DNA from: Apium graveolens
Lineage: Eukaryota; Streptophyta; Magnoliopsida; Apiales; Apiaceae
Direction: 5' to 3'
Assembly (NCBI RefSeq): GCF_009905375.1
Contig: NC_133655.1
Span: 41,330,422-41,394,421, forward strand
Length of the DNA stretch: 64,000 nucleotides
The stretch's first letter is position 1. Every line of letters begins with the position of its first letter. Of this stretch, positions 6,830 through 41,730 are shown piece after piece. Position numbers and translations under genes: made by a program. Under the pieces are notes generated by a model. The model saw nothing but the letters and a program-made list of their open reading frames with translations. It was not told the DNA's origin and searched no databases.

Positions 6830-9800
6830 CGTTTGTGTGAGTAAAAATTTCTGCCTTATAAATTTGCTTTATGTAGTGTATGATTTTTTTTTCAAAGCAA
6901 GAGTTTATTTGTTTGCTTTATTTTTGTTTTATAAGGAATATTCTAAACCTTGGAGAAATTCCTTTTAAAAGTTATTTTATTCACAAATTTCAAAAGTGAT
7001 TTTATAAAATTTCTAAAAATCCAAGTTATTTTATGGTATAAATTTTATAATTTTTGAACTTGTATTTTATTTTATAAAAATAAATCTTTACAAATTTTAT
7101 TTGTTATAATTATCAAATTACATAAGAGACCATGCATGCAAATCACCCATCTATTCTCTCAAAGGGCAAATAAGACTTTTCCAACCCCACTAACTCATTT
7201 GATTATTACCAAATTACTACATTAGCCTTGCATGCAAAATGGCCTAACTTTAGCTAAAGGACATTTTTGTAAGTTCTCACTTCCACTCATTATTTGTCAA
7301 CCAAAAAGCATAAAAAAAATCAAAGTGGGAGAAATCATTCCACTCATTCCACATTCCAACACACCACAAATTTTCTCTCTTTCCCCCCCTCCCACCTTGC
7401 TCTCGGCCGAAGGCCAAATTCCCCACCCCCCTTCCATTTTTCAATTCATTCTTCATCTTCCCAAGTGTAAATCTTTTACCTACATTCATCTTATATACTT
7501 TCCAAGTGTTTTGAGACTTGGAAGTTGAAGTTCCATGGATGCATGTGTAGTTCTTATGTGATCTCCAAAGAGAAACTCTTGATTCTTGTGAATTCAAGAG
7601 CTCTCTATGAGATATATTATGTATATGTGCTAACTAAGTGTTTTATGGAGATATCATGCTTTAAAATCCTTTGCATGCTACTGAAATTTCATTATATATT
7701 TATGTTTAGCCATGCATGCTAGTTTTAAGACATTAAAATGATGATCAACCATGTTTTGCATGCTATTCTTTTCGAAATCATGTTGTTATGTTTAAAAATC
7801 TATAAATGCGAAATAGGTTTGCTTGAAATAGATTGTTTCCATGATAAATTTCTTATTAATACTTAAAAGAAGTTATATTTCATGATTATTAAGGATGAGT
7901 ATTAGGTGCAAGTGGATTTTTCTAGCATTTAAAACTTTATGCCTAGCCGAAAGCTTGTTATGTGCTTTCCATGAGTTGCATGTTATATATTTAGTTGCAT
8001 TTTGTTGTTTTTGGGCATGGATGATCTCACCCAAGGTTATTTTGAGAATAAGGGAGTTAGTTCAGTAGATTACCATGTATAAGCCTTGGTTTAAGTATTG
8101 AGTTGTTGTTAATTGAGTTTTTCAAGTCAAAACCTTGGAAAATGAGAGTTATAGTTTCTGCAGAAAATCACTTTAGTATCCTGAAGTTTAGAGTGAGTTT
8201 TGGCCATGTCATTAATGTGCACTTTGAGGCCCAAGACACCAGAAGTTAGTATCGGGAGTATACAAAAGGTTTTAGGAGTTGGTTGGAGGTTTGCATGTCT
8301 TTTGGTTAGGTGCACAAGTAGAATCACAAAATCTGTCCAGCAGGGGACAGTTTTGTTGCAACTTAGAAATAGGGAGATTTGACCATGTCATGGATAGGCC
8401 CTCATTAGGCCCAATTGGGCCTTAGTTAGAGGGAGTGTCAGAGAAGTTTTTCCAACCATAGTTCATAGGATATGAGTTAGAACCATGTGTCACAAGTTAA
8501 TTCAAGTCATGGCATTTTCTGCCCAGAAAAGCAGGGGAACCTTGGACTTTTAGCTTAGGCCCAAGAAGGCCCAAGCCAGGCCCTTGAGCCACATCAAGCT
8601 TGTGAGATGCCCTTAGGTCAGGAGAGTCTTGTGTAAAAGTTTTGAAGGAAAACTTGTAGTTTAAGAGTGCCTAATGCACTCAAGAAACTATAGTTGTCAT
8701 TCTGAAATTTGCACCAGTGAGCACTATCACTTATCACATAGTTTTAGAACACTTAGAAGTGAGTATTAGGTCGACCACCATAGTTGTAAGATAGTATAAG
8801 GTCAGTAGAGAAAAAGGCATAAGTGAGGGTCAATAGGTGTTGGATAATTTAGGAAAGGCACATCGAGTTAGGAAGCCAAAATTAGAGGACTATGTCTAGT
8901 TTAGCGACCAAGTGACTTAAGTTAAGAGTCGAGATCATCCAAGCCTAGTGTTGCATTATGGTATATATGGTGTTATTTGGTGTTAATATATGATATGTGA
9001 TTATGTGGCTATGTGTGTGAAATTGTAATTTAAAAGTGAATATAAATTAAGTGCATATAGGCCTAAGTGCCATCCGTGTTAAATTTCGAGTTATAAATAG
9101 GTTAAGTTGGTGAGAATATATTATAATGAGGATTATTATTATTTATGTAGGATCTCGAGATGAGGGAAAACTTACCATAAAGGTCGAGTGAAGCTCCAGT
9201 TGCTCCTACCAGTCAGACCAGACCAGCCTATCTCAAGGCAAGTGATTCAACTTGACCTTCGTATTTACTATAAATAGTTCATATATATATTGATGCAATT
9301 ATCCTGAGTCATTTGATATGTTTTAAATAAAGTGTATCTTATGTTTATCTTTGAATCATATAGAAATGCCATGAACCCTCGAGTACGTATTGCAAGTAGT
9401 TCAAAAGTCTTATCATGACAGTATATTCAAGTAATTCGAATGCCATGATAAAATAAAGAGTTGTTATAGCACTCGGTTGATTCTCTTGATTACCATGCTA
9501 ATGATTCCTAAGTAATGATATCTCATCCTGATACTTGAATCCCTATAGAACCTTACCTTGATACCTGAAAGCCAGATATTTATCAAAGTTGTCCCTAATT
9601 GATTGATACCCCTCTTTCTTATCCTAAAGCTTGTCAATTCGGATATATCCTGAGCTAAAAATCATTTTTTCATACCTTAACACCCTTAGTATTCATGAAG
9701 CTTACATTCTTGATGATCCAGCACTTGAACCTTGATGAGAAACCATTGCTTTAAGCCCAATTTGGCACTTTCTTTCATGATAACCAATAGCCTCACTAAA

Positions 9801-10634
9801 TTCCCTTGTCCAAACTTTGATACATGAAAACCATTCAGTTACCCTAATAGAGTTTAGTTTTTTGAATCATGGCTCTGAGATTTAGTACCATATTTCTCGT
9901 GTTTCGAGTTGATCTATAATCCCTTAATAAAAATGTTTACTGTAAAAAGAGATTTTGTCATAATTCGGCATCAGTTTTTGAAATAAATAAAATGTGGGTT
10001 TTTCAGTCCCAAGGGGGATAAATGTTTTCTTTGAACGGTGGATCTGGACTGAGACGCGAGTCCTTTCCACACTTATATTAGGCTTAAAAGTTGCCTAGGG
10101 ATTCCCGTTAATGTTTTGGAACCCAGCGAGGTTCGGGATTACTTCGCGACTGATCACCGGCTGTAATCCGTAGCGTCATAAAATGATTTTGATTAAGATA
10201 TGATTTTGAAATTGTTTTGATATAAACGGAATGATGCCATTATCCAAAGTTTTATCTCTCGTTATCTCAGATTATGTCTTCCCATTGACATTCTTTAATA
10301 TATATCTCGATTTATGTTTTGTATCGTATTGTTTAGCACTTGTTGATCATTTGGCTCACTCCTTGCTTTACCCTGATATTATAGCTAGCAGCTATGGTTA
10401 GATTCAAGCAGACTGCCCGTAAGACCTGTGATGCTAATGCTTATGTTCGAGCGCAGGTAAAATAAGTAATAATAGTTTGTGTGAGGACTCGGTACTTTTA
10501 ATCAGATATAATAGTTGGTAGTGTTGGGCTGTTCCAAACCCTAAACTGTAAGATCTTGGAGTTGGTTGTGTATTCTTCATTTAAAATATTGTAATAGTTA
10601 TATTTAATTTGTTGTTTAAGTTGGGGGTGTGACA
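6830..10634 (+). repeat. 5' LTR of Tekay A, about 3.8 kb
   Basis: The right end is clear: GGGGGTGTGACA at 10634 followed by the primer-binding site. The left end is not defined because the 3' LTR is absent. I place it near 6.83 kb from comparison of internal landmarks with the Tekay E LTR (the segment CTCTCGGCC lies at about 7402 here and 57430 there). The LTR holds no long reading frame, but its last 240 bp carry a short coding exon (10394-10456). 7370-7440 is pyrimidine-rich, as expected of a transcript leader. Confidence 0.65.
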
Positions 10635-11128
10635 GGTTTTGGTATCAGAGCTACGGTTTAGAGTCCCTGGACAGCCCAAATAGGTTATAGGATTTGTGTG
10701 TAGGTTATAGATATTATGCGAGAGAGTAGGTTAAGTAAATTATTATTAATACTCCTCTTATTGGTTGTCAGCAAAGGGCGCATTCCTCGTCATCCTCTGG
10801 GTCGGATGACACTATTGCTTTCTCCGTGTATGCTGAGTTGAGGCGCGAGTTTGACATACTTCAGGGCAAGTACGACCGACTGATAGACCGACTGAAGAAC
10901 GTGTATCCGGACAGCCAAAACTATGAAGGGAAGCCCAAGGAGCAGATGACTGCGAGACTTGAGACCTTGGTTCAGTACGTCAACACTAAGCTTGAGGAGA
11001 TGCCAGCACATCGGGACCGTACCAACCAGTATGTCATTCAGATGGTGGCGGCTGAGCTCCAGAGCATTGTGAAGACGCTTCAAGAGGAAAAGACTACCAA
11101 GCCCCGTTCAGATGGAGTGGAACCTTAG
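10394..11128 (+). CDS. Spliced leader gene of Tekay A with a histone H3 tail-like N-terminus
   Basis: Exon 1 (10394-10456, 21 codons) starts with ATG inside the LTR and reads M-V-R-F-K-Q-T-A-R-K-T, which matches the histone H3 N-terminus (R2, K4, Q5, T6, A7, R8, K9) at seven of the ten positions after Met. It ends GCGCAG before the donor GTAAAA. Exon 2 starts after the acceptor TTGGTTGTCAG at 10772 and runs to TAG at 11128 (118 residues). Exon 1 ends in phase 0 and exon 2 is open in phase 0 from its first base, so the join is in frame. The 315-bp intron removes the LTR end and the primer-binding site. Exon 2 starts with a Ser-rich acidic patch (HSSSSSGSDD) and continues as a probable coiled coil (YAELRREFDI, YDRLIDRLKN). 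The splicing and function are inference. The exon arrangement recurs in Tekay B. Confidence 0.5.
10640..10651 (+). other. Primer-binding site of Tekay A
   Basis: TGGTATCAGAGC, complementary to the 3' end of initiator tRNA-Met, begins 5 bases after the LTR end at 10634. Confidence 0.9.
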
Positions 11129-11446
11129 TTCTTTCCATTTACCTTTCATGTTGTTATACTATCAGACTCTATGGATACCCCAGTTATTTCCGTTGTTTCC
11201 TTTAAATAAGCCTGTTATTTCTAGAATCAGACTTTGTCCCAATCCTATGTATTGTGACCTTTAAAGTTTCAATAATTATGTTCTATTGTTCCATTTGCTC
11301 TCAACTGTTATTTTACGTTTTTATATGCATCATCATATCTGCTTAATTTGGAAACTTGACCCCATATGTAAATAAGAATGCCATGCGATACCCTCGAATC
11401 ATTTCATCATTCATATCTGTTTTGACATAACTCTTATTTCAGGATT
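11129..11446 (+). other. Untranslated leader between leader ORF and gag
   Basis: There is no open frame. It is T-rich and ends CTTATTTCAG at about 11442, a good splice-acceptor-like sequence only a few bases before the gag ATG. The degraded Tekay D and Tekay B copies keep a similar CAATCAGG before their gag ATG. Confidence 0.4.
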
Positions 11447-14400
11447 ATGCCTCCCAAAATGAAGAACCCAACAACCACATCCACCACAGACCCAAATATT
11501 CTTCGACTACTGGAAACTTTGCAACAGCAGACCATTGCTATAGCTCAACAACAACTAACTCTTCAACAACGAATTGCAAACCAAGATAACCATGAGCCAC
11601 ACCAACCACCTGAACCACCAGTACCACCTAGACAAATTGTAACTTTCCAGACTTTTCAGAATATGAATCCACCTACATTTCATGATACCACTGATCCAGT
11701 GATAGCTAACACATGGATCAAGGAGATGGAAAGGGCTTTTGAGTTGGTACAGTTAGGAGACGATCAGAAGACGCCGTATGCTACTTACTTCTTGAAGGCA
11801 GAAGTCATCTATTGGTGGGAATCAGTAAAAGCTATAGAAGTCACTCAGCAGGTTTCTTGGGAGAGATTTAAGAAGTTATTTCTGGACAAGTATTACCCTA
11901 AGTACATGCAGAATCAGATGGAGCTAAAATTTCTTGAGTTGAAGCTAGGGAACATGACTGTATTGGAGTATGAGAAGAAGTTCACTGAGTTGTCAAGGTT
12001 TGTGACAAAGTATACCAGCACTGAGGAGGAAAAAGCAAAGAAATTTCAGCAAGGATTGGAGCCTTGGATCAGAGATAGGGTGGCTATGTTTGAGCTTGAA
12101 ACTTATGCGGGAGTAGTACAGAAAGCTGCTCTGATTGAGAATAATGGGATGCAGTCAAGGAAAGAGAGGGATAACAAGAAGAGGAAGGTTCCATTTTATG
12201 GAGAAAATTCTGAAGCAGGAAGTTCACAAGATCGGAATGTAAAGAGGATTGGTTTCCGGAAGGGCGGAAATTTTCAAAAAAAGGGAAATTTGGGCAAAAG
12301 GCAAGAATCAAAAGGGAACAATCAGGCAAGCCAAGGGCAAGTTGGAGAAAACAGGTTCCAGAGACCGGAATGCAAGCACTGTGGAAGAAGGCACCCCGGA
12401 GTATGCAATAAGCTGAGCATGACCTGTTATAGGTGCAATCAGAAGGGACATTTGGCAAATGAGTGCAAGATGCCGAAGCCAGGAGTTACGTGCTACAAGT
12501 GTGGGAAGACTGGACACATGGCTAGGGAGTGCAAGGCAACCGGACCAGTCAAAGCTCTGATGAACGTGGCAAGTACCAGTGCAAGCATGCCAGCTGAGGT
12601 ATTGGCATTACCTCCACCACCTACACCAACCCCACAAGCAACAGCAAGGACATTTGATTTGAAGATGAAGGATGCTGTACAGAATTCGGAGGTGATAGCA
12701 GGTATACTTTTACTCAATAATGTCAAAGCTAAAGTATTGATTGATTCGGGAGCAACAAGATCTTTCATATCAGAATCTTTTATTGATAAGCTCCAATGTC
12801 ATAAAATGGTTATGAGTGAGGTAGTAAATGTGGTAATTGCGAACCAAGAGAAGATTCCTGTGAATCAATTTTGTCCAAAGTGTGAGATTGATATTTCGGG
12901 GAATAAGTTCTCAGCCGACTTGATACTCTTCAAGTTGGGAGAGTTTGACATAATTTTAGGAATGGATTGGTTAGGAGAGAATAGCGCTCAGATTAATTGT
13001 AAGACCAAGAGAGCGTATTTAAAGACGAAGAGTGGAGAGAAGGTAGTATTTAAGGGGCAGAGGCAAGAGCAACTATTTCTTACAATTGTTCAGGCTAAGA
13101 AGTTACTTAGAAAAGGTTGTGAATCGTTCCTAGCTTATATAGTGGATTCAGAGAAAGGCAGCCTCAGCATGGAAGATATTCCTGTAGTTAACGAGTTCCC
13201 CGATGTGTTTCCCGACGAACTACCAGGCTTACCACCAGATCGACAAATTGAGTTCGAGATCAACCTTGCTCCAGGAACGGAACCAGTTTTAAAGGCCCCA
13301 TATAGGATGGCACCAGCAGAAATGAAAGAGTTGGCGAGCCAGCTACAAGAATTATTGGATAAGGGAGTGATACGGCCAAGTGCATCGCCATGGGGAGCAC
13401 CTGTTCTGTTTGTAAAGAAGAAAGATGGGAGTATGCGTCTATGCATAGATTATCGGGAGTTGAATAAGGTAACGATCAAGAACCGTTACCCGCTACCAAG
13501 GATAGATGACCTTTTTGATCAGTTGAAGGGAGCAAAATGCTTTTCGAAGATTGATTTGAGATCGGGATACCATCAACTAAAGATCAAAAAAGAAGGTGTT
13601 CCCAAGACCGCATTCAGGACCAGATATGGGAATTATGAATTCCTAGTAATGCCGTTTGGATTGACCAACGCTCCGGCCACATTTATGGATCTGATGAATC
13701 GGGTATTTAAGAAGTATTTTGACAAATTTGTCGTGGTATTCATTGATGACATCCTTATTTATTCTAAGTCGGAAGAAGAGCATAAGCATCACCTCTGGAT
13801 AGCATTGGAGATACTCCAACAAGAGAAGTTGTATGCCAAGTTTACCAAATGTGAGTTTTGGTTAAAGGAAGTTCAATTTTTGGGGCATGTCATTGGAAAT
13901 GAGGGAGTTAAAGTGGATCCGGCAAAGATTGAGGCAGTTATGAGTTGGGAGAGGCCAAAGACTCCTACGGAAGTGCGAAGTTTTCTAGGATTGGCCGGAT
14001 ACTATAGAAGATTCGTCAAGGATTTTTTGAAGATCGCCACGCCATTGACCAAGTTAACCAGAAAGAATCAAAAGTTTGAATGGAGTACAGAATGTGAAGA
14101 TAGCTTTCAAGAGTTGAAGCAAAAGTTGGTTACAGCTCCGGTGTTGGTACTTCCAGACGATCAAGGGAACTTTGTAATTTTCAGCGACGCTTCACATAAG
14201 GGTTTGGGTTGTGTGTTGATGCAACACAGTAAAGTGATCGCATATGCGTCAAGACAGTTGAAACCGCATGAGTTAAAGTACCCGACGCATGACTTGGAAC
14301 TAGCCGCCATTGTGTTCACACTTAAGATTTGGAGACATTACCTCTATGGAGAGAAGTGTGAAATCTACACGGATCACAAGAGTTTAAAGTACATTTTTAC

Positions 14401-14694
14401 TCAGAAAGAGCTCAATATGAGGCAAATGAGATGGCTGGAATTGATCAAGGACTATGACTGCTCGATAAATTACCATCCTGGAAAGGCGAACGTAGTGGCC
14501 GATGCTCTGAGTAGGAAGGAGAGATTGAATATGATGATACATCAAAAGAGTTATCTGAAGAAATCGAAAAATTGGAATTGGAACTTTGTGCTTATGGAAA
14601 AGTCGAGGAAGTTTGTCGTGCAATGACCTTTCAGCCAACACTAGTGGAAAGGATAAAGAAGTGTCAAGAAGAGGTAATGGAGAAAGAGAAGAAT
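11447..14694 (+). pseudogene. Tekay A gag-pol polyprotein (gag, PR, RT, RNase H), 3' end lost in gap
   Basis: One frame is open for 1,059 codons. Residues about 65-250 are the retrotransposon gag domain ([29 protein letters not shown]). Residues about 308-360 hold three zinc knuckles ([40 protein letters not shown]). The aspartic protease has DSGATRSFI near residue 433. The RT runs from the KAPYRMAP region to FIDDILIYS (the YxDD box is FIDD, usual in this group). RNase H starts at [10 protein letters not shown] and ends at [10 protein letters not shown]. Near 14540 a single-base frameshift diverts the frame to a stop at 14626. The correct frame continues to the gap (VCRAMTFQP then the start of the integrase linker). 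Integrase and chromodomain are not visible. The start MPPKMKN follows a splice-acceptor-like site and fits the family. This is the best preserved gag-RT in the window. Confidence 0.9.
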
Positions 14695-14794
14695 NNNNNN
14701 NNNNNNNNNNNNNNNNNNNNNNNNNNNNNNNNNNNNNNNNNNNNNNNNNNNNNNNNNNNNNNNNNNNNNNNNNNNNNNNNNNNNNNNNNNNNNN
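14695..14794. other. Assembly gap (100 N)
   Basis: Exactly 100 N, a conventional size for a gap of unknown length. The left side is Tekay A pol on the plus strand, the right side Copia-2 on the minus strand, so the gap replaces the 3' part of both elements or marks a misjoin. Confidence 0.99.
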
Positions 14795-20871: not shown

Positions 20872-21501
20872 CATTGGGCTACGACATGTTCTCCGATTAT
20901 GTCAAGTTTGATTACATTTCCCACATTTCATTTGTTTGAATGCCTTTGTCTTTCTCTCCCAATAAGCTTTTCATCTTCTTTTTTTTGTCTACGAACTCAA
21001 ATTTTTCCTTCTGGAGGATAGACTATCAATGATCTTATATTGTCTAGTAATTCCCAGCTGTCTTTATTCCGGTTTGGATAAACAGTTTCTTTATAGGCGT
21101 CAACCATAATTTCATTCTTGTAATTATAAGGCGAACAATAGTCAAAAGTATCGAGATTACATTTCTGAAAGATAGCAAAAGCATGGGCACAAAATATTTG
21201 ATCCACCTGGAATCTATATATTGACCAGATGATTCAAAAAATACATTAATATAAGAAATATGAGTTGTAAGCAGTTGGATATTCAGAAAAAGTTGTATAT
21301 ATACCTTTTGGACATTCAAGTTCTTGCATTGAGATAAACTACATTCTTTCATTCACCCTTAAGGATTTCAAATAAAATGTGATTTGTTAGATGAACCTAT
21401 TAATTTATTTCTAATTGAGTCAATCTAATATAAAAATGTTTAACATAAAGTTGTAGTAAAAAACTTTAAATAACTCATAGTTAAATCAAGTGAGCAGAGG
21501 T
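20872..21501 (-). pseudogene. MULE transposase, C-terminal part (SWIM finger and zinc knuckle)
   Basis: This is the 3' continuation of the transposase whose 5' part is at 35027-36523, displaced by the Tekay B insertion. Near 21345-21300 a Cys-rich C-x4-C segment appears. After a likely intron of about 95 bp, with acceptor TTCCAG at about 21207, comes DQIFCAHAFAIFQ, together the CxC...CxH SWIM zinc finger of plant Mutator-like transposases. Downstream are PNRNKDSWEL and PPEGKI, then a terminal zinc knuckle CGKCNQT-x-HNRRTC near 20940-20895, where the expected Gly is a stop (TGA). Frameshifts are present. Neighbouring Tekay B starts exactly at 21502, and GAGGT at 21497-21501 is duplicated on the other side. 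Confidence 0.75.
21497..21501. repeat. Target-site duplication GAGGT, left copy (Tekay B)
   Basis: GAGGT occurs directly before the LTR at 21502 and directly after the other LTR at 35022-35026. A 5-bp duplication is standard for Ty3/gypsy insertion. Confidence 0.9.
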
Positions 21502-24500
21502 TGTGACGCCCTAAATCTCGGGTTAGGAAATGAGGACTCACACACCTCTAATCTAATAATTAAATATGCATAAACCCCGATTTCCTACTAACAGGATCAA
21601 CAGGATAAAGTATGAGACAAGATTACAACTACCAATCACAAAAATATAACTTACAAACCCAAAATACAATTAAATAAACAATATCGATTCCGGCTGGGAA
21701 TCGACAGATAACCCATTGTATCTTTATACACCTCTTTCTAGGCGCGAGCTCACTCATTAACACCACTACCTGCTCTGGAAACCGGAAGCCCTCAACACGG
21801 TAGGGACCACCAGGTACGCTCTTACGAGCAGTGCGCCTAAGCCTGGCCATCTTCTTGCTTAACTTCCATTGTTAGATTAAGGCAAAACAAATGAGTATAA
21901 AACTCAGCAAGTAACTATATAACAGTTCTATAATATCAAAATCACAATATGCTTGAACAAAATAGGGCATTCTACTTTAATTAATCTAGGTGCCAGATTT
22001 CTATCTTTTTGGGATAAGGAAAGGTATCTGAAGAATAGTATGAGTTTTAAAGGAACAAGGCTCGAAACAGGACGAAAGCTGACATTCATCACAAATCATT
22101 ATAGGATCCAAAATAGATCTTTCGATAGAGGAAAGCAACAGTAGTTTAAGATATAGAATCAATCATACGATCAACAATTTCAAGAATCAGGGTTCTCGAG
22201 CTTTAAGCTCCACAATGACATATCAACTCTTTTCAAAGCAATATAAACCATTTTCAATTTCAAAAATCAATTTACTGAACAAAAGTTTCAGTTCCCTTTT
22301 TTAAATAATCACTCAGAACCCTTGATTAGATCACTTTATCTTTCCATTTCATTATATACGGGTGATCAGCCCGTATCGACCTCCATTCAGGTCTTTAAGG
22401 TACCAATCAACATAATTTCAGCCTTAAGTTGGACTAGTCCCACTAGCCTCTTACCATGACTGGACTAGTCCCACTAGCCTCTTACATCCCAATCCAATCC
22501 ATCAGGAATTCATTTGGAAAACCTTGAATTGGAAAAACAAATAGGTTTTCTAAAATCCATTTTATCATTACCAAGCATTTGAAATCATTCGGACTCTTTC
22601 AAGTCGAAACTCATTCTTAAATCAGATTTTAAGGAAACAAAGTTCAGGGAGTGATTCAAAAGTATGCAAGGAATATTTCACAAGAATACTGTATCAAGGA
22701 TAACAAGGCACTAAATTAGAAGGATCAACATATGTTTAGGGATCAATAGGGTGATCAAGAGAAACAAGGTATCATTAAACAGGGTTAACAAGGATAATCA
22801 AAAGGCTCAATATAATCCATGGCTTAATAGGTACTTGAACAGAAAGACAGATTATCAAAGGGTGAAATCAATAGGATTATCAATAACAGGTTATCAAGAA
22901 CAAGGGTACTTCAAATCAATATTAGGGTTTCATAAAGCAAGGGTTTCATATTTTAACAGTTCAATACTCTACATGGTATGAATAACATTCTCTTTATAAC
23001 CGTTTACACAAGTAATCAAGAGTTACTTGCCTGGATTTGCTTTCCTGAAAGTTGAACTACTGCCACCTAGTAAATCCTTTCCTTTCCTAGCCTGAATGTC
23101 CTCACGCTCTGAGTCTACAATAAAACAAAAAATCTTAATCAGATTCTCAACTTTCGTTCCCGGAACGATCACTCTATACGATAACTCGATTATATCTTTG
23201 ACTCGAGCATACGAATATAGCTTATACTTATAAGCACATAGCACAAAGCACATAACATATCCCTTTCTCGTAGTTTTATATCCTTATATACTTAACCATC
23301 AAAGCGCACTCGCTTGACCTTAGCTATTTCTTAAATCACACTAACACGACTCTATTACGAGTACAAGACCTAATCACAATCAAACAATTACGTTCACAAC
23401 TTTCACTTATATTCTTTAAAATCAATCAACTTAGTTCCCTTTTATTTTGTTCCTTAATTTGAACCACATATTATAATCAAGCAAACAAATTCATAGATAT
23501 TCACTTATACATCTTTAATCATCCTTTCGATCATAAAAACCAAGTTTTCGACTTGTAATCCCTATGGCCTATTCGGCCTTATCACACAAAATCAACCAAA
23601 TACTCACTTTAATTCACATACGCACAGAACTCATTCAAAACTTATTAAAAAATCATCCTCCTTTCCTTTAATCATAAAAATTCGAACCAAATTATACATA
23701 CATGCTCGCATGCAATTCAATTTCAACTTATCATTATATCAAACACTTCATTTTCATCAAGTAAGCCAACTAAGTTTATTAACACAATCCTAAATCACAA
23801 AATGCATCCATTTATTCATCAAATTAGTCCCTTTTAACTCAATTCCCATTCGGTAAAACTCAAATTTGCACCTCAAAGACAAATCAATGACATGCACATC
23901 TTGATCCTCTTTAAAACTAGCATGCAATCACTTTTAGGCCATACAAACTTAGTGTTTACCAAGATTATCTCACAAAAATCAATTTCCTTTCTTATTAACA
24001 CAAAATTCAAACCTAAACTTAGCATGCAACAACAATTTCATTCCTTTTTAATCTAATAATAATCCATCATCATTTTAAACAAGTTAACTCAAACCCACAA
24101 CTTTTAAAGATTAACACCATTCGGGCTTTTCAAAAAAAAATAAAACATGCAACTTGATATCCTTAATCTTTAAATCATAAATCAACCTATATTTCAACAT
24201 CAAATCAATAACTCATGCATTTCAATACAATCAACTTGATTTCCTAAAATAGTAAGGGCCATTCGGCCTTTTAATCAAAACACCACATGCAAACACAAAT
24301 ACTTGATTTTAAGGTTCTAGAGCTCAGTTTTTAACATCATAGCTCACCACCGGTTCAGCAGAGTTCATCATCGGTGGCGGTGGCATCTCGGTGGTGCCCT
24401 CATTCGAGGGTGTCCAACCACGAAGCCCCTGATTTGGTCAATTACGCAAGATAAACAAATATGCACATCTTTTCTATCATTGGTTTGCAAACAATCAAGC

Positions 24501-24959
24501 TTAACAAGATGACATCAATCAACAACAAGAAGGACCATGTGGTTCTCGGGTGAACACACACACCGAGCACACACAACACACACACATCGACATGCAAGCT
24601 TAATCATTCAGCCTGACGGCCCGACGCTCAGTGTTTTAATTACGCTTCTCAATATCTTTACCAATCAACACGTCACTTAGGATGAAATACTTTATTTACT
24701 CATTCATTCATTCAATCACATAATTCATATTTTATATTCTTTAACTCCATATTAGGACGGGTTCCGTTCTACCTGACGACCCGACACCACAACTTATCTT
24801 TTAAGCTGACTCTTTAAATTGGAACGTTTTTATCCACGCTCCTAAACTCTAGTATACAGATAAGACAAATAATCATCACTTAATCATATAATTATAATCA
24901 CATCACATAACACACTCTTTATTAACTTAATTACGACGCAAAATTCCTCAGTCGTCACA
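21502..24959 (-). repeat. 3' LTR of Tekay B (3,458 bp, internally deleted)
   Basis: On the minus strand it starts TGTGACGACTGAGG (24959) and ends GGGCGTCACA (21502). It matches the 5' LTR closely along its length, except that about 773 bp corresponding to roughly 33860-34675 are absent at about 24608. It keeps the H3-like exon equivalent at 21850-21770 (M-A-R-L-R-R-T-A-R-K-S-V, ending CCAGAGCAG before GTAGTG), intact and without the stop seen in the 5' LTR copy. Confidence 0.95.
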
Positions 24960-24987: not shown

Positions 24988-27900
24988 CCAAAATCTAATC
25001 TAAGCATACAGATGGGGATACTTTTCTTTTATTTCGCTTTCTAATTCCCAAGTCGATTCCTCGACTAGTGGATTTCTCCACAACACTCTGACTAGAGGTA
25101 CAACTTTATTTCTAAACGTCCTTTCTTTTCGATAACATGGCTCACCTCAGCATTATATTTCCACATAGGACAAATCTGGTTGGATTTCCACCGGTTCCAA
25201 CTCAATAACATGGCTCACCTCAGCATTATATTTCTTCAGAAGAGATAGATGAAACACATTATGCAGATGTTGCATTTGCGGCGGCAGCGCCAATTCATAT
25301 GCCACTTTCCCGACTTGTCGTAATACTTCAAATGGTCCAATGTACCTTGGACTCAGCTTTCCTTTCTTTCCAAATCGAGTTAAGCCTTTCCAAGGAGATA
25401 TCTTCAACAAGACTTTGTCTCCAGTTTTGAATTGCACATCTTTTCGTTCTTGATTCACATACTTTGCGTGTTGGTCTTGAGCTGCAATTAATCTCTTTCG
25501 TATCATTTCAACCTTTTCCTTCATTTGCTGAACTAGCTCTAGGCCAATTAACTCGCGCTCACCAACTTCATCCCAATAAGTAGGGGATCTACACTTTCTT
25601 CCGTACAACGCTTCATAAAGCGGCATGCCAATACTCGCATGATAACTATTATTGTAGGAAAACTCAATTAAGGGCAAATGATCATCCCAATTTCCTTTGA
25701 AATCTATTGCACAGGTTCGCAACATGTCTTCAATCGTCTGGATTGTCCTTTCACTTTGTCCGTCTGTCTGCGGATGATATGCCGTACTCATTTTCAATTT
25801 CGTTCCCAAATGATCATGGAATTGTCGCCAAAATCTCGAATTAAACCTTGGATCTCTATCAGACACGATAGATACAGGAACTCTATGACGCATCACGATC
25901 TCATCCAGATATAATTTGACCAACATCTCTAATAAAGACCTTTCGTTTATCGGCAAGAAATGTGCTGACTTTGTCAACCGATCGATTACCACCCAAATCG
26001 CATCGTGATTTGACTTGGTTTTAGGTAATCCTACCACGAAATCCATCGCGATATGTTCCCATTTCCATTCAGGTATGTCCAGTGGCTGAAGCAATCCGCT
26101 TGGCCTTTGATGTTCCGCTTTAACTCTTTGGCACGTGTAACATTTACTTATCCATTCCGCAATTTCCTTTTTCATGTTTGGCCACCAATAATTTCCTTTT
26201 AAATCCTGGTACATCTTCGTGCTTCCAGGGTGAATTGAAAATCTCGAGTTATGCGCTTCTTGCAAAATCTCGTGCTTTAGTTCTACGACATTAGGTATCC
26301 AAATACGTGAGTTAACACGGTATATCCTTTTTCCATCCTTTTGAGCTTTAATTTCTTCTCCCGTCAACTTATCCTTTTCGCGACTCATCATTTGCTCTTG
26401 ACAACATCGAATCTTTTCCAAAATTTCAGGTTGAAACAGCATTGCATAAATAGCTTTACCTCCACATTCTAGAGTCTGCACCTCTATTTCCATCTTGTCA
26501 AAGTCCTTGATTAATTCTTCCGATGACGTTAACAGATTCAATCTTTCCTTTCGACTTAAGGCATCAGCTACCACATTGGCCTTTCCAGGATGATAGTTTA
26601 TCGCACAATCATAATATTTGATCAATTCCAACCACCTTCTTTGTCGCATATCCAATTCTTTCTGAGTAAAGATATACTTTAAGCTCTTATGGTTCATATA
26701 AATCTCGCACTTTTCCCCGTACAAATAATGCCTCCAAATCTTAAGGGCAAACACAATTGCTACCAATTCCAAATCGTGCGTTGGATACTTCTGCTCGTGC
26801 GGCTTAAGTTGCCTTGACACATATGCTATTACTTTCCCGTGTTGCATTAACACGCATCCAAGTCCTTTATATGAAGCATCACTGAATATCACAAATTCCC
26901 CTTTATCATCTAGTAATACCAACATTGGGGCGGTTACCAAACTCTTCTTTAACTCCTAAAAACTTTCCTCGCACTTTTCTGTCCAAACAAACCTCTCGTT
27001 TTTCTTCGTCAACTTTGTCAACGGAACAGCAATCTTTGAGAAATCTTGCATAAATCTTCTATAGTATCCAGCTAATCCCAGAAAACTTCTAACTTTCGTC
27101 GGAGTCTTGGGTCTTTCCCAATTCATTACAGCTTCTATCTTGCCTGGGTCCACTTTAATTCCTTCTTTATTAACTACATGACCAAGAAATTGCACTTCCT
27201 TTAGCCAAAATTCACACTTTGAAAACTTCGCATACAGCTTCTCTTTTCGCAGAATTTCCAAGGAAACTCTCAAATGCTCCTTATGATCTTCTTCCGTCTT
27301 GGAGTAAATCAGTATATCGTCGATAAACACAATAATGAACTTATCCAAATACTGCTTCAACACTCTGTTCATAAGATCCATAAATGCAGCTGGCGCATTT
27401 GTTAAGCCAAACACCATTACCAAAAACTCATAATGTCTATATCTCGTTCGAAACGCTGTCTTGTGTATATCTTCCGCTTTAATCTTTAACTGATGATACC
27501 CAGATCTTAAATCAATCTATGAGAAACACAAAGCTCCTTTCAATTGGTCAAACAAGTCATCGATCCGCGGTAGAGGATACTTATTCTTGATTGTCAACAT
27601 ATTCAGCTCACGGTAATCGATGCACAATCGCATACTTCCATCCTTTTTCTTTACAAACAACACCGGTGCGCCCCACGGGGATACACTCAGTCGGATTACT
27701 CCTTTGTCCAACAACTCTTGCAACTGACCTGCCAATTCCTTCATTTCGACCGGCGCCATGCGATAGGGAGCTTTCGACACTGGTTCCGTACCAGGAGCCA
27801 AGTCAATCGTAAACTCGATCTCTCTGTCTGAAGGTAGTCCAGGCAATTCATCAGGAAACACATCCGGAAAATCTCTTACTACCGGAATATCGTCGATCTT

Positions 27901-29513
27901 TACAGATTCTTTCTCCACATCCATGACATGAGCCAAATAAACTTCGCATCCTTGACGTATTAATCTTCTTGCCTCAATAGCCGTTAGAAATTTCTTCTCT
28001 TGCCTCTTTCCTTTAAATATCACTTCCTCACCATCCTTGGTTCTTAACTTCACCTTCTTACTTTTACATTCTATTTGTGCCTCATGGTTTGACAACCAAT
28101 CCATTCCTAGTATAACCTCAAATTCTCCTAACTTAAAAGGAATTAAGTCAGCAGAAAAGTGCCGACCTTCTATAGACACATCACAATCAGGACAAATCTT
28201 ATTAACAACAACTTTCTCTTGATTTGCTACCTCTATAATCAAATTAGGCTCTAGAGGGTATGCAACACAATTTAACTTATCAAGAATACTTTCAGAGATA
28301 AAAGATCTAGTTGCTCCTGAATCCATCAAAACTTTTACTTTTACTGAGTTTATAACAAGCATACCTGCTACCACATCCACCTCTTGCACCGCATCTTTCA
28401 TTGTCATGTTAAAGGTTCTAGCTCTGGGTTGAGATGATGGTGCTGGGAGAGACGACGGTCCAGCAATTCTGAGAACATTAGCCTTCTGCACAGGCTCCTT
28501 GCAATTTCTGGCCATATGACCCACTTTGCCACACTTGAAACAAGCCAAATCAGGTTTCCTTACTCCATTTGAACATTCTGAAGAATAATTCCCCTTATGG
28601 TTGCACTTAAAACATGTTATGTCCAGCTTATTACACCTCCCCGGGTGTCTCTTTCCACAGTTCCTACATTCTTGCATCTGGGGCCTGCTATCCTTTCCCG
28701 GTTGTCCAGCTTTCTGGAAACGGTTCTTTTGAGCTCCATTCCCGGGTCTAAACTTCTGTAACTTTTGGTTCTGACCTCCACCATTCTTCCCAAACTTCCC
28801 TCTGAACTTTGAGCTTCCTTGCTCTTGCTCAGAGCTTTCAAACTTCCTCTTTCTTCCTTCATTTTCTCTTCGAGCAGCTTCCCGCTCACCTTCCACTATC
28901 ATTACTTTCTGAACCAAGGCATCATAGTTCTTAATCTCCAACATTGCTATATGACTCCTAATCCAAGGCTTGAGTCCCTGTTGGAACCTGTTAGCCTTCT
29001 TCACTTCAGTATTCACGTACTCAGGTACGAACCTTGCCAATTCCGAAAACTTCACCTCATATTCTGCTACCGACATTTCCTCCTGTCTAAGATCCAGAAA
29101 TTTCATCTCCAACTGATCTTGCATGTAACTTGGCAAATACTTTTCCAGAAACATCTCAGTGAACTTCTCCCAAGATAAGTTTTCGCCTTCCAACAACGCC
29201 TTAGAAGACTCCCACTAGAAACTTGCTTCATCTTTCAGATAATAACTCGCGTACTGAGCTTTCTTATTATCCTTAACTTCGGCTAATTCAAAAGCTTTTT
29301 CCATCTCTCTTAACCACGACTGCGCTTTAATTGGGTCTGGCAAACCTAAGAACTCTAGGGGATGAACGGATTGAAAGTGCTTGAAATTTCCAACTTTTGG
29401 GCCACAGGTTGTTGCAAAAGCTGAGCAAGTCTGCTCATCATGGTGGTTTCTAGGTTTATTTCTGGGTCTTGGGTGGGAATTTCTTCTTCTTGGTGATCTG
29501 GTGAGTTGGCCAT
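24988..29513 (-). pseudogene. Tekay B gag-pol polyprotein (gag, PR, RT, RNase H, integrase, broken chromodomain)
   Basis: The gag ATG is at 29513 (MANSPDHQEEE), matching the start in Tekay D. A frameshift near 29400 moves to the main frame, which then runs to 25153. It is interrupted only by three TAG codons, at about 29215 (in the YWW-type gag motif), 27514 (RT, before IDLRSGYHQ) and 26956 (before ELKKSLV). Domains: gag; zinc knuckles [26 protein letters not shown] and [14 protein letters not shown]; protease [11 protein letters not shown] with FIDDILIYS; RNase [11 protein letters not shown] to [10 protein letters not shown], where the usual YTDHKSL is YMNHKSL, losing a catalytic Asp; integrase HHCC zinc site, then [17 protein letters not shown] and [11 protein letters not shown] with D, D and E present. 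The chromodomain tail (VLWRNPLVEESTWELE) survives in another frame near 25060-24990. Confidence 0.95.
25132..25233. repeat. 29-bp direct duplication disrupting the chromodomain
   Basis: A 29-bp stretch beginning ATAACATGGCTCACCTCAGC occurs identically at 25132-25160 and 25205-25233. The upstream (25205) copy is at its normal place in the integrase tail ([10 protein letters not shown]). The other copy sits where the first part of the chromodomain should be and brings the stop codon at 25153. Confidence 0.9.
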
Positions 29514-30051
29514 TTCTTACAAACCTGATTGAGCAATTATTTAGCAATACGATAGCATGGCATGTATATATTTAACAACAATTTCTATGAAATCTCTTTT
29601 GTGGGTTTTAAGTTTTACCCAATTTGCACATGCAATCCTATTACTACATAATTCTCATATCAGTGTTGTTTTATCATGGCACGGAATAGGGTTTTATGAT
29701 CTTTAAACATGGTTATACAAAAACATGGTTGTATTAAAACATGGCATCGAGAACAGTTTATAAGATAATCAAGGTGCACAATGGAATTATTTAAACAAAG
29801 GTTACATAGAGAATATTTTGGATATTAAGGTTCTGAAATAAGGTACAAAAAATAGCAGGGTTAAACAGAGGAAAAACTGGAAAACATCCCCCTATCTACC
29901 CCTAACTTCCATCTACTACTACTACTACTACTATTACACTGGTTTGAAATACAACAAGATAAATGAAAAAGGGATCCCGGCATCTGACCAAGGATCCCAA
30001 AGCCTACCGCCGCTGAAAACAACAATCTACGGGCTCAACCAACAGTCCTGT
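29514..30051 (-). other. Leader between the Tekay B leader gene and gag
   Basis: Non-coding. It contains a (TAC)n/(GTA)n trinucleotide run near 29913-29936. It ends near the gag ATG with CAATCAGGTTTG, a splice-acceptor-like site also seen in Tekay D. Confidence 0.5.
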
Positions 30052-31139
30052 CTAATCATCTAGAATCTCTCTCGACACAACCAACATCAAGCGAATGATC
30101 TTATGCAGCCTCCGGGCCTCAGCATCAGCATCACTAGTGGATGGTCCCTCATCCAATCTCCTCCTGGCAACCTGCTCCACCATCTTCACCCGAACTCGCC
30201 ACTCATCATCCATAACAGAAGCACTCTACCTAGACTCTCTGGCTAGTCTATCCACCAAAGCTCCCAACTCAGGAATGCGGGAGTACACAAAGTCTCGGTC
30301 CTGGGCTAACTTGCCACCAACACTGACAGGAACAGTCTTAGGCATCTTCGACTCTGGCTCAGGGGCAGGGGTCTCTGAATCAGGCCTCAAGGGTGAAATC
30401 TGCATGGGGATCTCACTACTCTCAGAAGGGTTTTCCTCTAGGTCTGAACTAACATACACAGGCTCCTCTGGAGAGGGTGGAATAGGGTCCATAAGGGTAC
30501 CAGTCAAACTAATCTCTGAGTCTGAGTCACTACCACTACTAGGATCCTGAGAGAAAACACAAAACAGCAACCAAGAAACAATGTTAGGGTTAAATAAAGC
30601 TTCCAGCTAACTCACACCCTAACTCTAGTTTCCGCTTTACTAATCAACACTTCCCTTAGACTATACCTAATAGTCTAACTCAACTCTATATGAGTCGAAC
30701 TCTCTCGTGATATAGATATATTCCCAAAATACCCCTTTTTTAAAACCTAACTTGTCTCAGGGACTAGATCCTGTAGCTCCGATACCAACTTGTGACGCCC
30801 TCAATCTCGGGGTTAGGAAATGAGAACTCACACACCTTGAATCTAATAATTAAATATGCATAAACCCCGATTTCCTACTAACAGGATCAACAGGATAAAG
30901 TATGAGACAAGATTACAACTACCAATCACAAAATATAACTTACAAACCCAAAATACTATTAAATAAACAATATCGATTCCGGCTGGAAACCGATAGATAA
31001 CCCATTGTATCTTTATACACCTCTTTCTAGGCACGAGCTCACTCATTAACACCACTACCTACTCTGGCAACCGGAAGCCCTGAACACGATAGGGACCACC
31101 AGGTACGCTCTTACGAGCAGTGCGCCTAAGCCTGACCAT
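30052..31139 (-). pseudogene. Spliced leader gene of Tekay B with an H3-tail-like N-terminus
   Basis: Exon 1 lies in the 5' LTR at 31139-31059 (27 codons) and begins M-V-R-L-R-R-T-A-R-K-S-V-P-G-G, aligning with the histone H3 tail (R2, T6, A7, R8, K9, S10, then a GG pair). It ends at donor GTAGTG. Exon 2 starts after TTTTCTCTCAG at 30546 and runs in frame to TAG at 30052 (164 residues plus stop). Both exons are phase 0, so splicing of a 512-bp intron joins them in frame. Exon 2 opens Ser/Asp-rich (SSGSDSDSEIS), is acidic and Pro-rich, and ends in a basic helical part (VEQVARRRLDE, EARRLHKIIR). Two in-frame TAGs break this copy: at the last codon of exon 1 (CAG in the 3' LTR copy) and at 30226. 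The arrangement matches Tekay A; the Tekay D fragment keeps the exon 2 end (EARR, KIIR). Confidence 0.5.
30776..30787 (-). other. Primer-binding site of Tekay B
   Basis: On the minus strand TGGTATCGGAGC, one mismatch from the initiator tRNA-Met complement, lies 3 bases after the LTR end GTCACA. Confidence 0.85.
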
Positions 31140-33924
31140 CTTCTTGCTTAACTGCCATGGTTAGATTAAGATAAAACAAATGAGTATAAACTCAGCAAGT
31201 AACTATATAACAGTTCTATAATATCAAAATCATAATATGCTTGAATAAATTAGGGCATTCTACTTTAATTAATCTAGGTGGCAGATTTCTATCTTTTTGG
31301 GATAAGGAAATGTATCTGAAGAATAGTATGAGTTTTCAAGGAACAAGGCTCGAAATAGGACGAAAGCCGACATTCATCACAAATCATTATAGGATCCAAA
31401 ATAGATCTTCCGATAGAGGAAAACAACAATATTTCAAGATATAGTATCAATCATATGATCAATAATTTCAAGAATCAGGGTTCTCGAGCTTTAAGCTCCA
31501 CAATGACATATCAACTCTTTTCAAAGCAATATAAACCATTTTCAATTTCAAAAATCAATTTACTGAACAAAAGTTTCAGTTCCCTTTTTTAAATAATCAC
31601 TTAGAACCCTTGATTGGATCACTTTATCTTTCCATTTCATTATATACGGGTGATCAGCCCGTATCAACCTCCATTCCGGTCTTTAAGGTACCAATCGGCA
31701 TAATTTCAGCCTTAAGTTAGACTAGTCCCACTAGCCTCTTACCATGACTGGACTAGTCCCACTAACCTCTTACGCCCAATCCAATCCATCAGGAATTCAT
31801 TTGGAAAACCTTGAGTTGGAAAAACAAATAGCTTTTCTAAAATCCATTTTATCATTACCAAGCATTTGAAATCATTCGGACTCTTTCAAGTCGAAACTCA
31901 TTCTTAAATCAGATTTTAAGGAAACAAAGTTCAGGGAGTGATTCAAAAGTACGCAAGGAATATTTCACAAGAATACTGTATCAAGGATAACAAGGCACTA
32001 AATTAGAAGGATCAACATTGGTTTAGGGATCAATAGGGTGATCAAGAGAAATAGGGTATCATTAAACAGGGTTAACAAGGATAATCAAAAGGCTCAATAT
32101 AATTCATGGCTTAATAGGTACTTGAACAGAAAGATAGATTATCAAAGGGTGAAATCAATAGGATTATCAATAACAGGTTATCAAGAACAAGGGTACTTCA
32201 AATCAATATCAGGGTTTCATAAAGCAAGGGTTTCATATTTTAACAGTTCAATACTCTACATGGTATGAACAACATTCTCTTTATAACCGTTTACACAAGT
32301 AATCAAGAGTTACTTGCCACCTAGTAAATCCTTTACTTTCCTAGCCCGAATGCCCTCACGCTCTGAATCTACAATAAAACCAAAAATCTTAATCAGATTC
32401 TCAACTCTCGTTCCCGGAACGATCACTCTATACGATAACTCGATTATATCTTTGACTCGAGCATACGAATATAGCTTATACATATAAGCACATAGCACAA
32501 AGCACATAGCATATCCCTTTCTCGTAGTTTTTATATCCTTATATACTTAACCATCAAAGCGCACTCGCTTGACCTTAGCTATTTCTCAAATCACACTAAC
32601 ATGACTCTATTACGAGTACAAGACCTAATCACAACCAAACAATTATGTTCACAACTTTCACTTATATTCTTTAAAATCAATCAACTTAGTTCCCTTTTCT
32701 TTTGTTCCTTAATTCGAACCACATATTATAATCAAGCAAACAAATTCATAGATATTCACTTATACATCTTTAATCATCCTTTCGATCATAAAAACCAAGT
32801 TTTCGACTTGTAATCCCTATGGCCTATTTGGCCTTATCACACAAAATCAACCAAATACTCACTTTAATTCACATACGCACACAACTCATTCAAAACTTAT
32901 TAAAGAATCATCCTCCTTTCCTTTAATCATAAAAATTCGAACCAAATTATACATACATGCTCGCATGCAATTCAATTTCAACTTATCATTATATCAAACA
33001 CTTCATTTTCATCAAGTAAGCCAACTAAGTTTCTTAACACAATCCTAAATCACAACATGCATCCATTTATTCATCAAATTAGTCACTTTTAACTCAATTC
33101 CCATTCGGCAAAACTCAAATTTGCACCTCAAAGACAAATCAATGACATGCACATCTTGATCCTCTTTAAAACTAGCATGCAATCACTTTTAGGCCATACA
33201 AACTTAGTGTTTACCAAGATTATCTCACAAAAATCAATTTCCTTTCTTATTAATATAAAATTCGAACCTAAACTTAGCATGCAACAACAATTTCATTCCT
33301 TTTTAATCTAATAACAATCCATCATCATTTTAAACAAGTTAACTCAAACCCACAACTTTTAAAGATTAACACCATTCGGGTTTTTAAAAAAAACAAAACA
33401 TGCAACTTGATATCCTTAATCTTTAAATCACAAATCAACCTATATTTCAACATCAAATCAATAACTCATGCATTTCAATACAATCAACTTGATTTCCTAA
33501 AATAGTAAGGGCCATTCGGCCTTTTAATAAAAACACCACATGCAAACACAAATACTTGATTTTAAGGTTCTAGAGCTAAGTTTTTAACATCATAGCTCAC
33601 CACCGGTTCACCGGAGTTCATCACCGGTGGCGGTGGCATCTCGGTGGTGCCCTCATTCGAGGGTGTCCAATCACGAAGCCCCCGATTTCGTCAATTACGC
33701 AAGATAAACTAACATGCACATATTTTCTATCATTGGTTTGCAAAGAATCAAGCTTAACAAGATGACATCAATCAACAACAAGAAGGACAATGTGGTTCTC
33801 GGGTGAACACACACACCGAGCACACACAACACACACACATCGACATGCAAGCTTAATCACACACATGCACACGAATTCAAGCTCTTGTATGGAATAAGGA
33901 TGAATATTCATAGAGTGTTTCAAG

Positions 33925-34078
33925 GAATTAGAGAGGGAGAGGCAATATACCGAGTGAAATCAAAGAGAGAGAGTTGTCGAGAGAGAGAGAGATAGTGAGA
34001 GTGAGAGAGAGTTCGGGAGAGAAAGAGAGAAAAGAAAGAAGAGAAAGTGAGTGCACAAAAGAAAGAAAAGAAAAGAAA
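33925..34078. repeat. GA-rich (plus strand) / CT-rich (minus strand) tract
   Basis: GAGA and GAAA repeats dominate. On the transcribed minus strand this is a CT-rich stretch just downstream of the TATA box, typical of plant transcript leaders. Confidence 0.85.
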
Positions 34079-34083
34079 GTGGG

Positions 34084-34092
34084 TTATATATA
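34084..34092 (-). promoter_or_regulatory. Likely TATA box of the Tekay B LTR promoter
   Basis: TATATATAA on the minus strand, followed about 30 bases later by the CT-rich tract. It lies roughly 930 bp into the LTR, upstream of the leader gene. It is absent from the 3' LTR because of the 773-bp deletion. Confidence 0.6.
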
Positions 34093-35021
34093 CCACTTAG
34101 AAACAAGGGCAATCTGGTAATTTACTAACTCTCTTTTGACTCACTCATTCCTTTTCTTTTTACTCAAATGCAACAAAATTCAAATATAAAATATATCTCT
34201 CTCGGAAACTCGAGAATTATTGAAAATGACAATTTTAACACGTAGGTCCCGAAATTAGCTTTTTATCCATTACTCATAATGAATTTTTGAGCGAACGGTT
34301 GATTTTATATGAATTTCGCAAACTTGCTTTAATAAATATATTTTTCTCATAAAATCAATTTAAAAAATGCAAAGATCAACAATTAAATTCACTCATCATT
34401 TTTAAAAAGTCTCTAGGACCTTTACAAAGATAACAGAACAAATCCCATGTTTTTATCTTAATCGAATGATTTTATAAAAATGTATTAAGGTTAATTAAAC
34501 CTTTACTTAAATCACGTAATTCCTTTAAAATTCACAAAATTGACACAGAACACGCAGTCATGCATACAATCAAGCAATCACACATATACAGTCACATAAT
34601 GACTCAGGTCTGATTATAAAATTCATCCTTCCTTATTCTTTATTCTCTTTTACGTGTATCGGGTCATGTTCAGCCTGACGGCCCGACGCTCAGCATTTTG
34701 ATTACGCTTCTCAATATCTTTACCAATCAACACGTCACTTAGGACGAAATACTTTATTTACTCATTCATTCATTCAATCACATAATTCATATTTTATATT
34801 CTTTAACTCCATATTAGGACGGGTTCCGTTCTATCTGACGGCCCGACACCACAACTTATCTTTTAAGCTGACTCTTTAAATTGGAACGTTTTTATCTACG
34901 CTCCTAAACTCTAGTATACAGATAAGACAAATAATCATCACTTAATCACATAATTATAATCACATCACATAACACACTCTTTATTTACTTAATTACGACG
35001 CAAAATTCCTCAGTCGTCACA

Positions 35022-41140: not shown

Positions 41141-41712
41141 TGTTATGGATAAAAAACTAAGGTTATTATTTGCTGTATTTATTACTAAGATTCGGGAGCT
41201 CAAGGCCTTTAATGGATGCTCTCGTGTATCGTAGCTTAATTCTGCCTTTACAAGATGCCTACATATCTCTGTGAATTAGAGAATCAAGCCAAAAAACATA
41301 GTTCTGATTTATGGGGCGAGACCCCTTATATAGATGTTGAGAGTCCTTGAATTGGACTTGGTATAGGAGACTTGGGTGGCAAGTCTCATAATTAGAATGG
41401 ACTTTGGAGTCCTAGATAGTAGGAAACTGATTCCTTATCCTTTTAGGTCCCCTTGAGGCCAATCTACAAGGATTTATATCCCCACTAGGACTTATCTTAA
41501 TAACTGTTTTCCTCCTTTATTTATTAATTATGAAATTAATAAATAATCAGGGTTTTTGGGCCTTCTTTGTTCCATCAGGCCTGATCTGGTACATCAGGCC
41601 TGATCAATGTGTTGACCTTCTTGATCTGAATATCATACATCTTCTTATTGGGCCTAGCATCCTACACCTTGCAATATTTATTTATACAATCAAGATTTAT
41701 TTATCCCTATCA
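41141..41712 (-). repeat. 3' LTR of the Tat element (572 bp)
   Basis: It runs from TGTTATGGATAAAAAACTAA to CCCTATCA and pairs with 50989-51560. By eye the two LTRs differ at roughly twenty positions, with no net length change. Confidence 0.95.
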
Positions 41713-41730
41713 TTTGCCCCCCAACTTTTG
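41713..41730 (-). other. Polypurine tract of the Tat element
   Basis: CAAAAGTTGGGGGGCAAA on the minus strand directly precedes the 3' LTR start TGATAGGG. Confidence 0.9.

Follow-up and report, generated by a model that had tools for sequence, protein, structure and literature searches.

The window analysed here, a 64 kb stretch of celery (Apium graveolens) DNA from contig NC_133655.1, contains two Ty3/gypsy retrotransposons of the Tekay (Del) chromovirus type, element A on the plus strand and element B on the minus strand. That these elements carry a two-exon accessory gene is well supported; its first exon, near the 3' end of the long terminal repeat (LTR), codes for a copy of the histone H3 tail at the N-terminus. 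The second exon lies between the primer-binding site (PBS) and gag. It encodes an acidic, serine-rich protein, which is likewise well supported, and this protein is probably mostly helical, as judged from models of its relatives.

Exon 1 of element A (10394–10456, plus strand; MVRFKQTARKTCDANAYVRAQ) opens at ATG 10394 with MVRFKQTARKT, residues 2–11 of which resemble H3 residues 1–10. It ends GCGCAG/GTAAAA, with the donor at 10457. The putative GT...AG intron (10457–10771, plus strand) encloses the LTR end ...GTGTGACA (about 10634, judged by eye) and a perfect PBS (TGGTATCAGAGC, 10640–10651, 12/12) and closes with the acceptor ...TTGGTTGTCAG, the last base of which is 10771. Exon 2 (10772–11128, plus strand; 118 amino acids plus stop) is joined in phase 0 and is open until the stop ending at 11128. 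When the sequence was re-read, exon 1, donor, acceptor, phase and stop were found as described in an earlier note made from the letters of the window. The note had called exon 2 a serine-rich, acidic, coiled-coil part: the serine-rich stretch is present, the isoelectric point (pI) of 5.7 makes exon 2 only mildly acidic and the helices come from low-confidence models only, among them that of the Heracleum relative P0008, in which the part after the serine-rich stretch is predicted to be helical.

Element A continues with an open reading frame (ORF) running from gag to RNase H (11447–14626, plus strand), two pieces of which were tested and matched Retrotrans_gag, zf-CCHC, RVT_1 and RT_RNaseH. 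After the end of the pol frame at 14626 a run of 100 N (14695–14794) marks an assembly gap, and the integrase, chromodomain and 3' LTR of element A are therefore out of view. The minus-strand ORFs beyond the run may not be true neighbours of the pol frame of element A. No second copy of 8000–11500, the LTR region of element A, was found within the window, so that the LTR status of its exon 1 is deduced from the PBS.

Element B (all features on the minus strand) has a 5' LTR at 30790–35021 and a 3' LTR at 21501–24959 (match bounds in both cases), which are 95.7% identical over the 3108 aligned bases of the main matching segment. The element is flanked by the 5 bp duplication ACCTC (judged by eye). 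A stretch of about 0.8 kb in the 5' LTR (33859–34669) is missing from the 3' LTR. Exon 1 is found in the 5' LTR at 31059–31139 (MVRLRRTARKSVPGGPYRV...), where a stop stands at the last codon, and in the 3' LTR at 21770–21850 (MARLRRTARKSVPGGPYRV...), where it is open up to the donor. Both LTRs encode M[VA]RLRRTARKSVPGGPYRV (M[VA]RLRRTARKS). Since both LTR copies are present, the exon is proven to be LTR-internal in element B; for the LTR-embedded exon of the earlier note, this proof stands beside the PBS-based deduction in element A. Element B was not used in that note and thus serves as a test of its claim.

The layout of element B is that of element A. The ATG follows an in-frame stop within a few codons; the exon, of 27 codons as against 21 in A, closes at a GT donor in phase 0, and beyond it lie the LTR end and the PBS (30776–30787, 11/12). 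The in-frame stop, which in element A lies just upstream of ATG 10394, places the H3-like block at the N-terminus in both elements. Downstream of the PBS a pyrimidine-rich acceptor is followed by a phase-0, serine-rich acidic frame, DPSSGSDSDSE..., at 30226–30546 to the first in-frame stop (30226–30228); there are celery relatives with a longer open frame. An upstream ATG in another frame, at 31158, heads ten codons that overlap the start of exon 1 and might lower or regulate its translation.

The gag-pol region of element B (25000–29571), broken by stops, includes pieces of an integrase and has an end that resembles a chromodomain (EESTWELE near 25062). Two pieces matched RT_RNaseH, Integrase_H2C2 and SH3_Tf2-1, and rve scored just below its cut-off (30.1 versus 32.6). 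In pol, 1920 aligned bases of A and B show 71% identity. Tekay chromodomains have been described by the motifs EEXTWEXE and (K/R)-X-(L/T)-R-X-(k/r) (PMC3350952). EESTWELE, which lies behind stops, fits the first; at the second, element B reads RTFRNK, one position off. The LTRs, PBS, gag/pol order and, in element B, the EEXTWEXE integrase end are as in Tekay chromoviruses. The accessible part of a plant LTR retrotransposon survey describes the clade by its polyprotein domains and, in contrast to the gene found here, mentions no spliced LTR-encoded accessory gene (PMC6317226).

H3 likeness of exon 1

For every ATG, the ten residues that follow were compared with ARTKQTARKS and given a BLOSUM62 score. 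The three LTR exon starts (A and both copies of B) ranked 1–3 among the 2492 ATGs of the window, with scores of 34, 33 and 30 and with 7, 7 and 6 identities; rank 4 scored 23. The top score in 120 simulated windows (299 988 ATGs) was 26. In a second simulation of 2 000 000 ATGs none scored 30 or more, none had seven identities and six had six identities. The pattern M.R.[KR].TARK[ST] did not occur across 300 simulated 64 kb windows. The H3-like start to which the earlier note had drawn attention is thus far beyond chance. An H3-tail sequence beyond chance, at the H3 distance from the N-terminus, was found in element A, in element B and in the Heracleum type described below.

A chance resemblance in a repeat-rich genome, in which repeats multiply accidental motifs, would be in keeping with the viral_contigs set, where 18 stretches carried one codon pattern for M-V-[RS]-x-x-x-T-A-R-K (17 with M-V-S and one, with Arg, M-V-R). 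It does not sit well with the absence of such scores from the 2 000 000 simulated starts, nor with a block that is common to two types whose LTRs are not clearly alignable and that stands at the same place relative to the donor and PBS in both. Chance was rejected on the simulations. Element B and the Heracleum relatives already go far towards refuting it, and it is considered extremely improbable.

Relatives in celery and hogweed

Three protein searches yielded 20 distinct matches, ten of which are named and come from celery (tribe Apieae) and hogweed (Heracleum sosnowskyi, tribe Tordylieae). Exon 1 is present in eight, all among the named ones: P0001 and P0005 (celery type A), P0008, P0010 and P0019 (Heracleum type A) and P0013, P0016 and P0018 (celery type B). 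The predicted exon 1/exon 2 junction is used in all eight of these annotated protein models, in agreement with the phase-0 splice from 10456 to 10772 proposed for element A. The Met of the block is the model start in P0008, P0010, P0013 and P0019. The other 12 matches comprise ten ORFs on contigs of 0.5 to 5.2 kb, of which five enter exon 2 from intron sequence and five start at an inner Met, and two named models with another start (P0012 and P0020). P0013 and P0016 carry NCBI LOC model names, and such models are usually supported by RNA sequencing (RNA-seq). Clusters at 90% contained 13 members for P0008 and 9 for P0013; together with the 20 matches they show an additional protein-coding gene outside gag-pol in several copies.

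Protein searches of viral_contigs gave no relatives. A reverse transcriptase (RT) query against genome_contigs gave four loci, three of which (L001–L003) are short contigs (3.2 to 4.8 kb) in bacterial assemblies. Their RT is 61–74% identical to that of element B; they are probably eukaryotic contamination and may be plant DNA. L003, with an RT 74% identical to that of B over 141 residues, is the only one of the three to bear a PBS.

The Heracleum form MVRTKQTARKSSNGVA... (MVRTKQTARKS; three models) is exactly H3 residues 2–10 and matched H3 chains in the PDB, the best alignment covering residues 1 to 21 (E 0.005). The celery A and B exons alone gave no PDB match up to E 10. No histone family was matched in Pfam by P0001, P0008, P0013, P0016 or the exons, the only matches being below the cut-off and to unrelated families. 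R2, T6, A7, R8, K9 and S/T10 are common to A, B and the Heracleum type and are retained by A and B in the window as well as by 7/8 models, the exception being R2 in P0005. Type B has Arg at K4, so that K9 is indicated in preference to K4, and celery types A and B have F or L at T3. All ten H3 residues 1–10 are represented in at least one type, and with the exact residues 2–10 of the Heracleum form this makes the capture from an H3 gene suggested in the earlier note plausible. Descent from an H3-like ancestor, with later drift at T3, K4 and Q5, is the simplest explanation of the pattern.

Between celery type A and Heracleum the identities per ten-residue block are 9, 4, 9, 6, 6, 6, 4, 2, 5, 5, 6, 6, 4 and 1/9. 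The first ten residues and the junction block 21–30 are thus the highest (9 each), the other twelve blocks having 1 to 6. Profile comparison detected no homology between exon 2 of A and of B (probability 0.5%, E 0.12; shallow profiles), which leaves the H3 block as the common part. Exon 1 is strongly basic (pI 10.3 to 11.4).

A further, apparently internally deleted element, D, has a possible degenerate exon 1 (60361–60444, plus strand; MNRTKLPIRER...) about 400 bp upstream of a perfect PBS at 60762. The match is suggestive only (P about 6 in 10 000 per ATG, with 12 ATGs examined). The frame is followed by GT, and an acidic frame lies beyond the PBS. The H3-like exon may survive in element D in decayed form; if it does, some elements lose the block.

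The long A–B LTR alignment with strict gap costs scored 25 and was not above shuffles (mean 22.4, maximum 33 of 200). With lenient gap costs a piece of about 180 nucleotides (nt) that includes exon 1 exceeded nearly all resampled sequences, of which 0 and 1 per 1000 scored as high for A–B, 0 for B–D and 24 for A–D. After removal of the 33 nt block the upstream piece was marginal (28 and 88 of 1000 for A–B, 26 for A–D, 135 and 68 for B–D) and the downstream LTR piece gave no significant similarity (92 to 374 of 1000). The LTR similarity signal is therefore mostly the block itself.

Possible functions of the spliced protein

A large share of many plant genomes consists of retrotransposons, which H3K9 methylation keeps repressed. 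We tentatively propose that the spliced accessory protein is a decoy or competitor of the host H3K9 silencing machinery, a reading suggested by the sequences that we regard as a serious possibility, somewhat short of an even chance. Transcription would begin shortly before exon 1, within the 5' LTR. Splicing would drop the LTR end and PBS and so give a dedicated mRNA for the mimic that could not be primed for reverse transcription, and unspliced RNA would retain the PBS and supply gag-pol and the genome; this two-RNA scheme is based on position and gene models only. The initiator Met, the removal of which is usual before Val or Ala, would be lost to expose V/A-R-x-K/R-x-T-A-R-K-S/T, with R2 and T6-A7-R8-K9-S/T10 at the H3 spacing. 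The acidic part might oligomerize and display several tails, which would occupy, or be modified by, host H3K9 writers and readers and so weaken silencing of the element. Candidate host targets are KYP/SUVH, CMT3-type and ADCP1-type proteins. The wider proposal, that H3-gene codons were captured as the first exon of a counter-silencing decoy and that LTR copies, including solo LTRs, could splice the tail onto downstream host exons, is doubtful. Overall, the interpretation given in the earlier note is partly supported, in its sequence part; that a histone-like tail might recruit readers or compete for silencing enzymes is a proposal.

If true, the H3 tail encoded by the element would link it directly, at the molecular level, to the host silencing with which it contends, and an LTR-borne exon could bring histone-tail starts to host genes.

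Several points weigh against the decoy. It must face competition from very abundant nucleosomal H3. PBS-anchored LTR ends at 38705 (minus strand; 0/7 ATGs), 18962 (minus strand; 0/3) and in L003 (0/14) lack an H3-like start, and the named homologues (10/20 matches), from searches that reach close relatives only, all come from Apiaceae. Four of the eight models (P0001, P0005, P0016 and P0018) are annotated with residues upstream of the block, which look like gene-model fusions, and ab initio prediction may account for part of the models. At the celery locus LOC141682795, P0012 and P0013 bear the isoform names X2 and X3 and have different first exons, one of which is the H3-like LTR exon. They differ at six exon 2 residues and, as listed, are thus not one exon spliced two ways and no proof of alternative splicing; either one gene model has taken in two copies of the element or the clustering has affected the names. 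AlphaFold models were poor (mean pLDDT 57 and 60), with a disordered N-terminus and helices in exon 2. The LTR pair of element B differs at 5/81 positions of exon 1, compared with 4.8% over 483 columns including exon 1, and thus gives no sign of constraint after insertion; dead copies would be expected to behave in this way, yet this lends no support. P0005 has Ile in place of R2, with TARK retained. Finally, the TARK codons are identical at 11/12 bases in A and B, and those bases may have a nucleic-acid role.

The last point also favours a retention that has nothing to do with mimicry. The exon would then go back to a few H3 codons captured long ago and would persist because it provides an initiation codon and a splice donor together with a basic or nuclear-targeting N-terminus, or because its DNA or RNA serves as a splicing, packaging or promoter signal. 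The basic pI of exon 1 and element D, which may retain an exon-like start without TARK, would fit such a role. A basic leader would not, however, hold T6, A7, S/T10 or the exact distance from Met across types, and the flanking DNA is not clearly conserved. Moreover, conservation within the first 33 nt is lowest at the third codon position: codon positions 1, 2 and 3 agree between A and B at 10, 8 and 6 of 11 (10, 7 and 6 for the other B copy). This is the direction that would be expected under protein-level constraint, over 11 codons only. We consider non-mimetic retention rather unlikely.

R2, which A, B, D and the Heracleum type all have, suggests another reading, in which the tail docks by its N-terminus, rather than by K9, in a PHD finger or a KDM1-type demethylase and hijacks or blocks the maintenance of DNA methylation or demethylation. 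Among plant PHD-finger proteins the VIM/ORTH type is a candidate. In the PAF15 protein, mutations of R3 and T4 lower ubiquitylation by UHRF1 and K5A has a small effect (PMC7060239), and the SNAG domain imitates the H3 tail in the LSD1 pocket (PMC5896174); both would be precedents for such docking. T3 is not kept in celery types A and B, TARK[ST] at 6–10 is kept in A, B and Heracleum beyond what R2 alone would need, and P0005 has lost R2 yet has TARK. This reading is judged improbable.

The tail might also be a tether rather than a decoy: perhaps methylated, it would be recognized by readers of heterochromatin or by the group II chromodomain of the element itself and would guide integration complexes or concentrate element RNA or protein in heterochromatin. 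The chromodomain-like integrase end of element B is in keeping with this, as is the targeting of group II chromodomains to heterochromatin, for which the mechanism and partner are described as still open (PMC6317226, PMC12786077). The present finding bears on what these chromodomains bind. Against the tether, seed-plant chromovirus chromodomains lack the aromatic cage for methyl-lysine (PMC6317226), so that a methylated K9 mimic would not by default be expected simply to bind the chromodomain of its own element. A tether is thought unlikely.

Histone mimicry as such is known from cellular proteins and some animal viruses; in a transposable element it is apparently new, within the literature searched. 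No report of a retrotransposon histone mimic was found in the titles or abstract starts among the matches listed, with subscription journals and preprints mostly outside coverage. VANC of the VANDAL transposons is an anti-silencing protein that acts on DNA motifs of its own DNA transposon, and it is not known to resemble a histone; the parallel lies in a transposon-encoded protein thought to counter host silencing. Influenza NS1 is a viral H3K9 mimic, and K9 mimics are mostly not N-terminal. The SNAG domain keeps little H3 sequence. PAF15 (PCLAF) starts Met, Val, has the V-R-T-K start of the Heracleum type and diverges from H3 after K4.

The H3-like N-terminus of PAF15 is bound by the PHD finger of UHRF1, as H3 is (PMC7060239), and PAF15 is thus a precedent for imitation of H3 at the extreme N-terminus of a small non-histone protein. 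It differs in being a PCNA-binding cellular protein known from vertebrate studies, whereas the retrotransposon match extends through K9 and S10. The SNAG domain (GFI1, SNAI1) is likewise an N-terminal H3-tail mimic on another protein and can block an H3 enzyme, LSD1 (PMC5896174), but it is found on transcription repressors. The H3K9 mimic of LIG1, which is read by the DNA-methylation machinery (PMC8594673), and that of WIZ (PMC10611923) have a short K9-like motif in common with the retrotransposon exon; the exon has up to nine consecutive H3 residues, at the correct N-terminal distance. A PAF15 origin of type B, considered from the resemblance of SVPGGPYRV to a presumed PAF15 stretch, was rejected: it had no Pfam support, and the presumed PAF15 letters, which returned nothing from the PDB, are not used as evidence. 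Six queries gave no match to a Pfam PAF model up to E 10; very short queries can drop at the filters, and the presence of the model in the library was unchecked.

Separate proteins from spliced subgenomic RNAs are known for Cer1 and EVADE (PMC12786077), Bagy2 (PMC7264820) and retroviral tat/rev. Here the spliced RNA is predicted from position and gene models and, unlike in those systems as described in the accessible parts of these sources, the first coding exon lies in the LTR, so that LTR copies bear the exon, and the intron takes out the PBS. The survey of plant LTR retrotransposons considered extra ORFs of at least 250 codons (PMC6317226) and would have missed a split gene as short as this one, at about 140 to 190 codons. 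The main text of a review of additional ORFs contains no occurrence of histone, Tekay or chromovirus.

Other elements in the window

PBS-like sites with two mismatches were found at 2160, 20219 and 35503. Element C (53603–56765) has no PBS near its start. A frame at 50953 (minus strand) starts MARTRRTIRALEEG (MARTRRTIRAL), with an H3-tail score of 23 (reached by about 7.5 per million simulated ATGs) and without TARK. It comes after TTGGCACCGTCTGTGGGAA, which is PBS-like by eye, and resembles the gag start of another LTR element. The direct repeats 41140–41714 and 50988–51562 (575 bases, 96% identical) are possibly the LTRs of the element with this gag-like frame.

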